Notes under the pieces: model-generated
Databases searched by the model: none
What the model saw: only the letters and a program-made list of their open reading frames with translations
Told to the model about the DNA's origin: nothing
Origin: a virus
Reading direction: 5' to 3' (one strand)
DNA length: 27,333 bases
Virus record (IMG/VR): IMGVR_UViG_3300020192_000069
Coordinates: 1 to 27,333 of that record
Translations under genes and position numbers: made by a program
Shown here: positions 2,830-17,744 of the stretch, piece by piece
Layout of the letters: the number at the start of each line of letters is the position of its first letter
Numbering within the stretch: the stretch's first letter is position 1

Positions 2830-3198
2830 TTATTTGTTATATGCTAGTAATACTTTTTGACTATATGCGCAGCTATCGTAGCGTACACCTTTTGAATTGA
2901 TACCGGATTTACACTTTGAAGTATTCCCTTGATTCCAGATTAGACTTATATTTTTTGGGCTATGTCCTTCATTAAGTAGCTTCTGTATCTTCATAGTAGC
3001 GATGTACTCTTCGTTGATTTCAGTGAAGGGTAGTACTTTTCCTTCGATTTCTTTTGAGTTTGCTATAAAGGTCGCTCCCATAAATTGATATCTTCCTTTC
3101 TCTCCCGATAACCCTCGCCTATTGAAGTTGTTGTTGCTTTCAGTTTTGGCGATAGCGTGTGCTAGTTTGCGAGCTTCGGGAGTGATTATAAAGAAACC
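2830..3198 (-). CDS. Lytic transglycosylase (SLT-like) domain, frameshift product
   Basis: The frame encodes a lysozyme-fold muramidase or transglycosylase: AIAKTES (probable catalytic Glu), GEKGRYQFM (as in transglycosylases), SLIWNQG (like the AYNxG motif) and a C-terminal YSQKVLLAYNK helix. It is open from 3228 but has no ATG, GTG or TTG before the internal ATG at 3081, which would cut off the catalytic Glu. Its frame is -1 relative to the membrane-anchored gene 3186-3569, which it overlaps. A -1 slip near 3198-3207 would fuse the two into about 246 aa with the enzyme outside the membrane. The alternative is an ATA start at 3189 (ATAA overlapping the upstream stop). Two cysteines suit an exported protein. 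The role would be host cell-wall breakdown at lysis. Confidence 0.75.
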   Translation of the reverse strand, partial: GFFIITPEARKLAHAIAKTESNNNFNRRGLSGEKGRYQFMGATFIANSKEIEGKVLPFTEINEEYIATMKIQKLLNEGHSPKNISLIWNQGNTSKCKSGINSKGVRYDSCAYSQKVLLAYNK

Positions 3199-3569
3199 TT
3201 TTCTTTTCGTATTGCTTCCAGTTTTATTTCAATCTCTGTACTACTTGCCTTGTACTCTGCATCAAGTTTAGATTTTTGCTTTGTAAGGATGATGTATTCT
3301 TCGGCGAGAGCTGCTTGTCTTTGGATATTTGCACGTTCCTCTGGTGTGAGTGCATCTTCTTTGATTGATACATCTTTACCCATAACTACGTTTTTAAACA
3401 CTTGAGGGTCCGCTTGATATGCGTTGTATGAGTAGATAATCACTCCGATAAGTACAATAATTGCAAGTACTTTTATAAGTGCAAAACCTTTGGTGTATGT
3501 ACTTTTGTACTGGTTACTTCCTCGTTTTTTTGTTTTTTTCTGAGAGTCTAGATAATGTGTAATTTTCAT
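3186..3569 (-). CDS. Membrane-anchored coiled-coil protein, N-part of a probable endolysin
   Basis: 127 aa in the zero frame. The N-terminus is strongly basic (residues 1-28), followed by a hydrophobic helix at about 29-50 (LIKVLAIIVLIGVII) and then a charged alpha-helical, coiled-coil-like region (LTPEERANIQRQAALAEEY onward). The positive-inside rule predicts N-in, C-out topology, a signal-anchor. The gene ends at TAA 3188-3186, inside the transglycosylase frame that follows in -1. A fusion would resemble a signal-anchor endolysin. Without fusion the protein could act as a spanin or membrane accessory. It is the first gene after the operator promoter at 3611-3639. Confidence 0.7.
   Translation of the reverse strand: MKITHYLDSQKKTKKRGSNQYKSTYTKGFALIKVLAIIVLIGVIIYSYNAYQADPQVFKNVVMGKDVSIKEDALTPEERANIQRQAALAEEYIILTKQKSKLDAEYKASSTEIEIKLEAIRKEKVSL
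3198..3207 (-). other. Candidate -1 frameshift site
   Basis: On the minus strand the overlap holds AAAAGAAAAG, read in the zero frame as (CG)A AAA GAA AAG. Slipping back one base re-pairs AAG as AAA and continues as GGT TTC TTT into the transglycosylase frame. It is an A-rich run rather than a perfect X-XXY-YYZ heptamer. No stimulatory pseudoknot was modelled. An indel in the assembly would give the same picture. Confidence 0.45.
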
Positions 3570-3610: not shown

Positions 3611-3639
3611 AGTATACTTGTACAATTGTACATATACAA
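3611..3639 (-). promoter_or_regulatory. Early promoter with TGTACA operator
   Basis: On the minus strand: -35 TTGTAT (3639-3634), a 17-bp spacer and -10 TATACT (3616-3611). The spacer is filled by the palindrome TGTACAATTGTACA (3619-3632). The first start codon downstream is at 3569. The same layout recurs at 5083-5111, so a repressor probably blocks RNA polymerase at both. Confidence 0.65.
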
Positions 3640-4897: not shown

Positions 4898-5052
4898 ATA
4901 TGTATATTTAATAATTCTTCGTCTGTGCTATCTTTAAAAGGAATTTCATCACTACTATCATCATCCTCGTCCATTTTTTCGGGGAGTATGATCTCTTCAT
5001 TATCAAGACAATTAGGGTCAAATCCGGATGGGTAAAAGTCTTTTTCACTCAT
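4894..5052 (-). CDS. Small acidic protein, 52 aa
   Basis: ATG at 5052 encodes 52 residues, and the TGA overlaps the next ATG (ATGA, 4897-4894). The protein is very acidic, with a MDEDDDSSDE run in its second half. It is the first gene after the operator promoter at 5083-5111. Its start region is tandemly repeated (ATGAGTGAAAAAC, then ATGAGTGAAAAAG), and the first copy (ATG at 5065) ends after six codons. It could be a DNA mimic or protein-binding peptide, but the function is unknown. Confidence 0.55.
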   Translation of the reverse strand: MSEKDFYPSGFDPNCLDNEEIILPEKMDEDDDSSDEIPFKDSTDEELLNIHI

Positions 5053-5082
5053 GTTTTTCACTCATTTATCTGATATATATAG

Positions 5083-5111
5083 AGTATAATATGTACACCT
5101 GTACAAGTCAA
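5083..5111 (-). promoter_or_regulatory. Early promoter with TGTACA operator
   Basis: On the minus strand: -35 TTGACT (5111-5106), a 17-bp spacer and -10 TATACT (5088-5083). The spacer contains TGTACACCTGTACA on the plus strand (5092-5105), the same TGTACA-N2-TGTACA arrangement as at 3619-3632. A GTTATCCCCAG element lies at 5115-5125. It drives the acidic protein, the 149-aa protein, the exonuclease and the 54-aa gene. Confidence 0.7.
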
Positions 5112-5126
5112 GAAGTTATCCCCAGA

Positions 5127-5498
5127 TTATAGTTTAACCTCATATATTGATATTTCTCTTGCTTTTTCAAATGACAGTGACTTCATAGTTTTTTTGCACT
5201 CTACTATCTTAAAAGCAAGTATAAAAAAGACGCACTTAGGATACTTAATAGCCACATATGAAGCTAGCCCAGGGGGAGTTGAAATAATATCGCATGTTTT
5301 TAGGCGGAGATCCGCATCACTCCATTTGATAACCAGTCCACTTTCTTCGGCAGCAAGAAGCCCCGGGAGTTGTTGAGGCTCGAAGTTCGAGAGATTAAAA
5401 CGATTGGTGAGGGTACTCTTTATCTCAATATGTCCGTATATCTTTTTTAATGATATGTACTTTTCTATACGTGGAGTAATGTTTGCTTCGTGTTTCAT
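5127..5498 (-). CDS. RecU-like Holliday junction resolvase or PD-(D/E)XK nuclease
   Basis: 123 aa. The segment from GHIEIKSTLTNRFN to NFEPQQLPGLL has the RecU/resolvase arrangement: E-x-K (E25, K27), then a loop with Phe/Asn and a Glu-x-Gln-Gln motif at the start of a helix, followed by CDII (D69) and a hydrophobic strand (YVAIKYP). The ATG overlaps the helicase stop (ATGA, 5498-5495), so the two are translated together. The likely role is cutting branched replication intermediates before packaging. A more general nuclease is the alternative. The usual N-terminal Asp motif is not obvious. Confidence 0.6.
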   Translation of the reverse strand: MKHEANITPRIEKYISLKKIYGHIEIKSTLTNRFNLSNFEPQQLPGLLAAEESGLVIKWSDADLRLKTCDIISTPPGLASYVAIKYPKCVFFILAFKIVECKKTMKSLSFEKAREISIYEVKL

Positions 5499-6994: not shown

Positions 6995-7909
6995 ATGCAA
7001 AATAATAATGTGATTACTGACTGGCTTCATCACCGAAAAATAACCGATAAAGTCATTGAAGACTTCACTATCGGTACTGATACTAGTGGTCGCATTATTA
7101 TTCCCATACGAAACAGTGACGGAGATTTTGTTTTTAATAAATATCGACGTAATCCATTACGTGAAGAAGGAAATAAATATACCTATGAATCAGGAGGAAG
7201 TGTTACCCTTTTTGCATACGACAAAGCAAAATCCTATGATACCATACTTTTTTGTGAAGGTGAAATTGATGCACTTGTTGCATGGAGCGCAAATATTCCA
7301 GCGGTATCTTCAACAGGTGGTGCAATGTCATTTAAGCAGGATTGGATAGAGTATTTCTCTACTAAGAGTATTATCTTGTGTTTTGATAATGACGAAGCTG
7401 GAGGCAATGGTATGGCAAAAGCACTTGAAATTGTCCCTCATGCAAAAATACTCTTTTTACCCGATCGTCCAGGCGTAAAGGATATATCTGATTATGTGAC
7501 TAGTGGGGGTAATTTACAGACCCTTTTACAAAGCGCAGTACGATTATCTTCAATGGAGGCAATTATTGCTCACAGAAATGATCGTGTTGCACTATGGCAA
7601 TCAACTTTTTTTCATGATGCCTATATTCGATATTATACTGAAAAACCAAAACAATCTCGTGATGTTGGTATACGAAGTGATGACAGGGTAATTCGTGCAA
7701 AGCAGTATCCTATTGATACATTAGTGAGTTTTACTGTTGCAGGAAAAGCAAAATGCCTTTTTCATAATGAAAAAACACAGTCAATGCACTATTATGCTGA
7801 TACTAATGTTTGTTATTGCTTTGGGTGCAGTAAGCGTGCTGATGCTATTGATATATATATGATTCTTCATAACTGCTCATTTTTAGAAGCAGTGAGTGCA
7901 CTACAATGA
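6995..7909 (+). CDS. Primase-like protein: TOPRIM first, CHC2 zinc finger last
   Basis: 304 aa from ATG 6995. Residues about 30-170 form a DnaG-type TOPRIM domain: a lead-in RIIIPIRNSDG, acidic motif LFCEGEID (E88), and CFDNDEAG (D131, D133). Residues 254-304 form a CHC2-type zinc finger: C254-x2-H257, then C275-x2-C278 with an extra C273 and the typical KRADAIDIYM follow-up. In DnaG and T7-type primases the zinc finger comes first, so the order here is reversed. A distinct RNA-polymerase domain N-terminal to TOPRIM is short or missing. It is followed with a four-base overlap by a P-loop ATPase, so primer synthesis at the fork is the likely role. Confidence 0.8.
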   Translation: MQNNNVITDWLHHRKITDKVIEDFTIGTDTSGRIIIPIRNSDGDFVFNKYRRNPLREEGNKYTYESGGSVTLFAYDKAKSYDTILFCEGEIDALVAWSANIPAVSSTGGAMSFKQDWIEYFSTKSIILCFDNDEAGGNGMAKALEIVPHAKILFLPDRPGVKDISDYVTSGGNLQTLLQSAVRLSSMEAIIAHRNDRVALWQSTFFHDAYIRYYTEKPKQSRDVGIRSDDRVIRAKQYPIDTLVSFTVAGKAKCLFHNEKTQSMHYYADTNVCYCFGCSKRADAIDIYMILHNCSFLEAVSALQ

Positions 7910-16886: not shown

Positions 16887-17744
16887 ATCGCCGTCATACC
16901 AACAATCGAATACGAAACAAAGCTTCAGGAACGTCTAGGCGCTCCAACAGTTTGGAAAGAAGTGTGTACTGTAAAGTATACAAACAGTGGAATCTGGCGA
17001 AACCCTTACCTAACTGACTCAACAGTCGGAACAGGTACTCGTGGAGCAGGTTACACATCTACAGCAATTGATACAGTAGATGATACTGTAACAATCAGTG
17101 CTTACATTTATTCAGCAGAACACATCGACGATGCAGACCTTGCACAAAAGACATTCTCTGACTTTATGGAAATCGCAGATCGTATGGGTAAAGTTCTTAA
17201 CGAAAGAATGGAAACTCTTATGCTTGCAGAACACGCAGCATTAACAGACTTCGGAGGTTCATCTATCGGACTCGGAGGTGCAGCAACAGACGCTATTACA
17301 GTTTCAATCTCTAACGTAAAGAAAATCATTTCTTCAATGAAGCGTGTTATCCGTGCAGCAGGAGGAAATGACAAAATGAACAGTGACGGAGCATTTATCA
17401 TCTGGCGTGAAGCTGACTATGAGCTCGTAGAACTACTTGCTACATCAGAAGGTTTCAACACAGCAGACGATGTTCTAAAGAACGGTATCAAACAAGGTTT
17501 CAAATATCTAGGCGTAGAGCACTACTCAACATCACGAAATGTGGCAGGTCACGTTTTCGGTGGTGTTAAGAAAGCTCTTGCAGTAGGTATCGTCAAATCA
17601 ACATACGGAAAAATGAAGACTTTGGTCAACCCAGTTGTATCAAGTGCTCAGATTTCTGGTGTAGGACTTGAATCTCGTATTGACCACAAATACAAGGTTT
17701 GGAATAACATGAAAGCCATCTTGCTCGATATTAACGTTGCTTAA
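16887..17744 (+). CDS. Major capsid protein; no ATG/GTG/TTG at the expected start
   Basis: The frame is open from 16863 and codes for AVIPTIEYETKLQERLG followed by APTVWKEVCTVKYTNSG, a typical capsid N-terminal arm, well before the first canonical start (GTG 16962, which would remove it). The natural start is ATC at 16887, giving 285 aa as (M)AVIPTIEY. ATC GCC mirrors the ATG GC context of neighbours. The rest has HK97-type features: an alpha/beta axial domain (ISNVKKIISSMKRVIRAAGG) and AFIIWREADYELVELL. It is placed right after the scaffold. It forms the icosahedral head. Confidence 0.85.
   Translation: MAVIPTIEYETKLQERLGAPTVWKEVCTVKYTNSGIWRNPYLTDSTVGTGTRGAGYTSTAIDTVDDTVTISAYIYSAEHIDDADLAQKTFSDFMEIADRMGKVLNERMETLMLAEHAALTDFGGSSIGLGGAATDAITVSISNVKKIISSMKRVIRAAGGNDKMNSDGAFIIWREADYELVELLATSEGFNTADDVLKNGIKQGFKYLGVEHYSTSRNVAGHVFGGVKKALAVGIVKSTYGKMKTLVNPVVSSAQISGVGLESRIDHKYKVWNNMKAILLDINVA

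Follow-up and report, generated by a model that had tools for sequence, protein, structure and literature searches.

The window analysed here is the whole 27,333-nt stretch of IMG/VR virus record IMGVR_UViG_3300020192_000069. On its minus strand, the 3' end of a gene for a predicted membrane anchor is overlapped in the -1 frame by an open frame for a predicted lytic transglycosylase, and the following features were assigned to this region.

3186 to 3569, minus strand: zero-frame anchor gene, 127 aa (ORF call, hydropathy, homology and AlphaFold)
2830 to 3228, minus strand: predicted SLT-type lytic transglycosylase domain in the -1 frame, with no standard start (ORF, alignment of 17 homologues, AlphaFold and fold comparison)
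3189 to 3194, minus strand: putative slip site TCT TTA, just before the zero-frame stop TAA; the only junction sequence common to the relatives L038, L054 and L060 described below
3198 to 3207, minus strand: A4GA4G run, the slip site of an earlier, sequence-only reading of this DNA; not conserved, 15 nt from the structure
3102 to 3182, minus strand: branched stem, predicted stimulatory RNA, 6 nt past TTA (folding, shuffles, synonymous null and pairing probability)

The anchor gene and the enzyme frame

The anchor gene starts at ATG 3569 and ends at the zero-frame stop TAA 3188-3186. The N-terminus of its product has a net charge of +7 ahead of a single hydrophobic segment (residues 28-46), and the C-terminal part is predicted to be a helix of about 50 residues that reaches the junction (AlphaFold helices 22-53 and 76-126; mean pLDDT 70). 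The enzyme frame is open from 3228, just past TGA 3231-3229, until TAA 2832-2830, and it overlaps the anchor frame by 43 nt in the -1 relation. The earliest ATG, GTG or TTG in this frame is ATG 3081, which lies 3' of the AIAKTES and GRYQFM motifs; a downstream frame that overlaps in -1 and has no start of its own is what is expected of a frameshift gene. At about 3200, the codon-usage coding signal leaves the anchor frame and continues in the enzyme frame, and a -1 slip at any point of the overlap gives a product of 246 aa. The sequence-only reading had described these two frames, an enzyme frame without ATG, GTG or TTG before the catalytic motifs, its -1 overlap with the end of a gene encoding a basic N-terminus, a signal-anchor helix and a coiled coil, and a slip product of about 246 aa; the present analysis bore out these points and the coordinates.

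Some features of the surrounding DNA were also noted. Two exact palindromes, TGTACANNTGTACA, are located at 3619-3632 and 5092-5105, each in front of a minus-strand operon, where 0.12 would be expected if one mismatch is allowed; a single regulator probably uses both as operators. A pair of neighbouring DUF4116 repeat paralogues with different repeat numbers is encoded at 1724-2827 on the minus strand. A primase-like protein (6995-7909, plus strand) has its Toprim domain ahead of a CHC2 zinc finger at the C-terminus, whereas DnaG usually has the opposite order.

By itself, the window enzyme sequence gave almost no match in Pfam, PHROGs or PDB, and it fell below the gathering score of PF06737 (14.3 bits vs 27), which is a recognition score and not a biological property. 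A distant homologue in L037 (36% identity) bridges the enzyme to the SLT and Transglycosylase domains. In the 17-member homologue alignment, E18 and YQFM are invariant, this catalytic-type Glu being situated in KTES; 15 of the 17 members matched PF06737 (E down to 9e-10) and 14 matched SLT (E down to 1e-7), and the alignment profile matched mycobacterial Rpf enzymes, with E18 aligned to the ES of RpfC. The AlphaFold model of the domain (pLDDT 95.7) could be aligned with Campylobacter Cj0843 (Z 13.3, 112 residues, rmsd 2.6) and also with Slt, MltC, MltE, MltF and phiKZ gp144. Helix 1 begins at about residue P5 of FIITP..., directly past the junction both in the model and in the homologues. The lysozyme/SLT fold and the conserved catalytic Glu, two marks of the class, were both found in the alignment and the model, and the enzyme is a predicted SLT-type lytic transglycosylase.

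Relatives with the same arrangement and selection across the junction

The same arrangement was found in the following relatives on separate contigs.

L038 (IMGVR_UViG_3300025018_000089): relative with anchor and enzyme in -1
L053 = L054 (3300012030_000051 and 3300023049_000004): two contigs, junction sequence identical
L060 (3300023049_000003): relative with anchor and enzyme in -1

In each of them, an ORF with a basic N-terminus, a transmembrane segment and a coiled region is overlapped at its 3' end in -1 by the enzyme frame, in which no ATG, GTG, TTG or CTG is found ahead of the catalytic motif. The sequence-only reading had proposed that homologues be aligned to see whether they carry both parts in one frame, and had named homologues with a separate standard start for the enzyme as evidence against a frameshift; neither was found in L038, L053=L054 or L060. 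These relatives were reached solely via the distant L037 domain and small alignments: single-sequence searches of viral contigs with the anchor or the enzyme gave no match, tblastn against phages and plasmids gave none, and among genome contigs neither the enzyme nor the terminase had a relative. Among the relatives of the window terminase (L002-L036), most of which are too short to reach the gene, none has the fusion.

The window anchor is 24-25% identical to the N-terminal parts of L038, L054 and L060, with EFQ.QQ.LLAEEIYINEQ in the relatives aligned to NIQRQAALAEEYIILTKQ in the window; the enzymes of the window and this clade are about 45% identical, and the DNAs of L038 and L054 are about 83% identical. 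The terminase of the relatives has no detectable kinship to that of the window, although an empty search is weak evidence; together with the low identity, this indicates from sequence comparison that the four distinct sequences belong to two independent lineages, L038, L054 and L060 forming one clade. The occurrence of four distinct sequences in two lineages is decisive against an assembly or sequencing indel that split one plain gene, an alternative kept by the sequence-only reading and conceivable for the window as a single metagenomic contig. Three distinct relatives on separate contigs share the shift and its position and lack a compensating indel, and L053 and L054 are two contigs of identical sequence at the junction, so that we regard an indel as very improbable.

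Substitutions were compared among L038, L054 and L060 in the 60 nt before the overlap, in the 36-nt overlap of this clade and in the downstream part. Upstream of the overlap, 8/16, 8/16 and 7/9 of the differences fell at position 3 of the anchor frame, and downstream of it 29/44, 42/69 and 37/55 fell at position 3 of the enzyme frame. The overlap itself had 3, 3 and 0 differences, vs a divergence of roughly 13-27% in the flanks. At the overlap, the coding constraint thus changes over to the enzyme frame, which the substitution pattern indicates to be under strong purifying selection; a -1 architecture conserved with selection in both frames, as found here, is characteristic of a frameshift gene. 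The absence of a standard start codon might also suggest a decaying gene in which the enzyme frame is an untranslated remnant, but the purifying selection (29/44 to 42/69 differences at the enzyme-frame third position), the retention of all catalytic-type residues and the confident fold leave this explanation with a negligible probability.

The anchors of the window and the relatives have mean Kyte-Doolittle values of 2.2-2.7, 21-37% small or polar residues and a net charge of +5 to +7 on their N-terminal side, and they are followed by a stalk of 81-123 residues (81 in the window). A hydrophobic anchor with positive charges on its N side predicts a cytoplasmic N-terminus and an external C-terminus. 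The sequence-only reading had called the protein SAR-like. SAR endolysins, e.g. P1 Lyz and P21 R, have a weakly hydrophobic anchor, and a weakly hydrophobic segment rich in small and polar residues was not found in the window or its relatives. Since the anchor segments are ordinary and strongly hydrophobic, and there is no sign of a release mechanism, the SAR label is unsupported; by its sequence, the segment is a signal anchor of the common, strongly hydrophobic kind, with a long helix behind it. The other part of that claim, a membrane-anchored and externally placed enzyme, is a prediction well supported by the homologues, the substitution pattern and the RNA structure.

The SLT domains of L039-L052 and L062 were considered as frame-fused counterparts and rejected, as they lie in a single frame inside long, mostly virion-type proteins. 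The same SLT-type domain is N-terminal in long virion-type proteins of other phages (L043, L047-L049, L051 and L052, at about 5001-5380). L049 belongs to L024, a terminase relative of the window, which suggests that the SLT-type domain moves between virion and anchor contexts.

Putative slip site and predicted RNA structure

The junction reads GAA AAG GTT TCT TTA TAA TCA CTC CCG in the window and GAA CTC GTG TCT TTC GGG TCA GCC CCG in L038, and the element GTN TCT TT(A/C) is common to the window, L038, L054 and L060. An IMG/VR DNA scan for GTNTCTTTNNNNTCANNCCCGNNGCTC matched these relatives only. The X XXY YYZ heptamer is common but not obligatory for -1 frameshifting. This canonical heptamer is absent from the junctions (T TCT TTA in the window and G TCT TTC in the relatives); since the classical tandem heptamer is lacking, we infer the exact slip codon, TCT TTN, from the shared sequence. 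Re-pairing of the single codon TTA or TTC to TTT would be possible without a heptamer. No conserved upstream Shine-Dalgarno-like stimulator was found at the junctions of the window and the relatives. In the whole window, there is no obvious Shine-Dalgarno motif before the predicted genes, and A/T-rich sequence precedes the starts. A +2 shift was considered and judged less economical.

The slip had been placed by the sequence-only reading in the A4GA4G run, which is present in the window at 3207-3198 (AAAAGAAAAG). This placement is probably wrong, because the relatives lack the run and its spacing to the structure is 15 nt, vs 6 nt for TCT TTN. The same run, together with TTTCTTT, would be a candidate for transcriptional slippage that alters the mRNA by one base; however, the junction of the relatives, GTGTCTTTCGGGTCAGCCCC, has no homopolymer longer than 3 except one C4 within the stem, and we consider this explanation less economical and very improbable, as is the indel.

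A branched stem is predicted downstream of TCT TTN in 4/4 sequences, in line with the suggestion of the sequence-only reading that a downstream stimulatory RNA structure be modelled. In the window, it consists of an outer stem CTCCCGA/TCGGGAG, a second stem AGCTC/GGGTT and an inner hairpin TAGC-ACAC-GCTA; the relatives have GCCCCG/CGGGGC plus CGCTC/GGGCG or similar (L054 and L060) or GCCCC/GGGGC (L038), and among the enclosed hairpins TAGC-N4-GCTA is common to the window, L054 and L060. In each of the four sequences, the distance from TTN to the stem is exactly 6 nt, within the expected range of about 5-9 nt. The window element has a z of -4.4 against dinucleotide shuffles, and under a synonymous-codon null, energy and outer stem jointly gave p values of 0.002, 0.003, 0.003 and 0.017 in the four sequences (0.002 for the window); for the first 40 nt, the folding nulls take no account of the second reading frame. 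The 95-nt stretch from the stem start is the most stable of the sliding windows (rank 1/187) in L038, L054 and L060, and ranks 5 in the window, where the best stretch starts 9 nt earlier and overlaps it. The long-range pairing probability of the window stem is at least 0.99. The position of the outer stem alone is not rare (9-22% under the synonymous null), and it is less surprising because the conserved amino acids favour the stem. The 3' arm of the outer stem falls on other codons in the window than in the clade, which is why RNAalifold, given a MAFFT alignment, missed this stem.

Proposed translation of the gene and comparison with known systems

A -1 frameshift, as proposed by the sequence-only reading, is well supported by the homologues, the substitution pattern and the RNA structure, and we put the probability that programmed -1 ribosomal frameshifting joins the two frames into a single gene at roughly 85%. 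This reading is supported directly by the conserved -1 architecture, the missing starts, the switch of constraint, the predicted RNA at a fixed spacing and the enzyme fold, and from it we infer the slip codon, the product ratio, the topology and the role in lysis. Translation would start at ATG 3569 and produce the basic N-terminus, the signal anchor and the helical stalk. At TCT TTA TAA (3194-3186) most ribosomes would presumably terminate, giving an enzyme-free 127-aa anchor, and some, held by the branched RNA and the stop codon, would slip back one base (TTA to TTT), resume at ATA and add 119 residues of transglycosylase, giving the 246-aa protein. In the relatives, the slip would take place at UCU UUC GGG; the Leu or Phe tRNA probably re-pairs to UUU. 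The anchor would put the enzyme outside the cytoplasmic membrane on its 81-residue stalk, so that peptidoglycan could be reached without a signal peptide or a holin. A role of the enzyme in lysis is likely. At another locus, the L038 phage encodes an amidase-like wall enzyme (L069, 3655-4992, minus strand, between the portal and protease genes, from sequence inspection), and the frameshift enzyme may therefore be a second muralysin there.

The enzyme could instead be a separate protein, translated by reinitiation at the unusual start codon AUA (or AUC) after termination, an alternative that the sequence-only reading had raised. The overlap of ATA with the zero-frame stop that it pointed out does occur in the window (ATAA, 3189-3186) as well as in the relatives (ATAG), ATGA couplings, which this overlap resembles, are present elsewhere in the operon and the window (e.g. 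1547-1550), and the capsid gene of the same phage apparently starts at ATC, which makes unusual initiation possible. However, the fit to the relatives is poor: their ATA is several codons deeper than in the window, at domain residue 10 within helix 1 and past the conserved SPxAQR. In addition, the enzyme would be made without export, and the branched stem at a fixed spacing, the hyperconservation of the overlap and the co-inheritance of the anchor would be left unexplained. We consider such initiation unlikely.

The major-capsid-like gene (16887-17744, plus strand) has ATC at its start position, as do L002 and, more distantly, L026; the corresponding codon is ATG in L005, L006, L007, L030, L031 and L036, GTG in L003 and L017, and TTG in L027 and L034. 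The capsid gene appears to be initiated at AUC.

If programmed frameshifting is correct, a conserved frameshift that attaches a muralytic enzyme to an anchor would be a new mode of lysis control. We see about an even chance that a -1 frameshift at a non-canonical UCU-UUN site (next to the stop codon in the window), in phages of at least two unlike lineages and with a branched stimulator, sets a fixed ratio of enzyme-free anchor to anchor-enzyme, so that translation would control how much wall cutting takes place or when. Gene callers would overlook such enzymes or start them too late to include the catalytic residue, as a start at ATG 3081 removes the catalytic Glu. The non-canonical slip site and the branched stimulator would be easily testable.

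Most known cases of programmed frameshifting in dsDNA phages concern tail and capsid genes, and bacterial Slt/Mlt enzymes are secreted or lipoproteins. The window enzyme shares the fold, the catalytic-type Glu and the domain length of SLT-type lytic transglycosylases (Slt70, Cj0843, MltC/E/F and phiKZ gp144), but differs from Slt/Mlt in being predicted to be joined by a frameshift to a type II signal anchor. SAR endolysins (P1 Lyz and P21 R) likewise export a muralytic domain with an N-terminal signal anchor, whereas the window anchor is strongly hydrophobic, has no sign of release and would be frameshift-made.

In the open-access literature, we found no case of frameshifting that makes a membrane-anchored transglycosylase or another lysis-type enzyme; the available sections of a major frameshifting review (PMC5009743) do not mention endolysin, lysozyme, holin or peptidoglycan, and the PRFect paper (PMC10885494) mentions lysis for MS2 only. 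In MS2, where the lysis gene is coupled to the coat gene by frameshift/termination (Kastelein 1982, via PMC10885494), access to a lysis-type gene is likewise by way of an upstream frame that overlaps it, but the MS2 lysis protein is started separately, whereas a fusion is predicted in the window and the enzyme frame is startless. The -1 frameshift signal of IS911, a bacterial-type system with a three-way-junction stimulator (PMC5009743), resembles the window in that the slip site is followed by a branched RNA similar to a three-way junction, although IS911 makes a transposase and uses another slip sequence, and no Shine-Dalgarno stimulator was seen in the window system. In the -1 programmed frameshifting of phage tail-assembly chaperone genes (Xu, Hendrix and Duda 2004, via PMC5506516 and PMC5009743), a dsDNA phage also shifts near the end of the upstream gene and makes a short product and a C-terminally extended fusion, whereas in the window a membrane anchor is predicted to be extended by an enzyme that cuts peptidoglycan, instead of a tail chaperone being made, and the canonical heptamer is absent.
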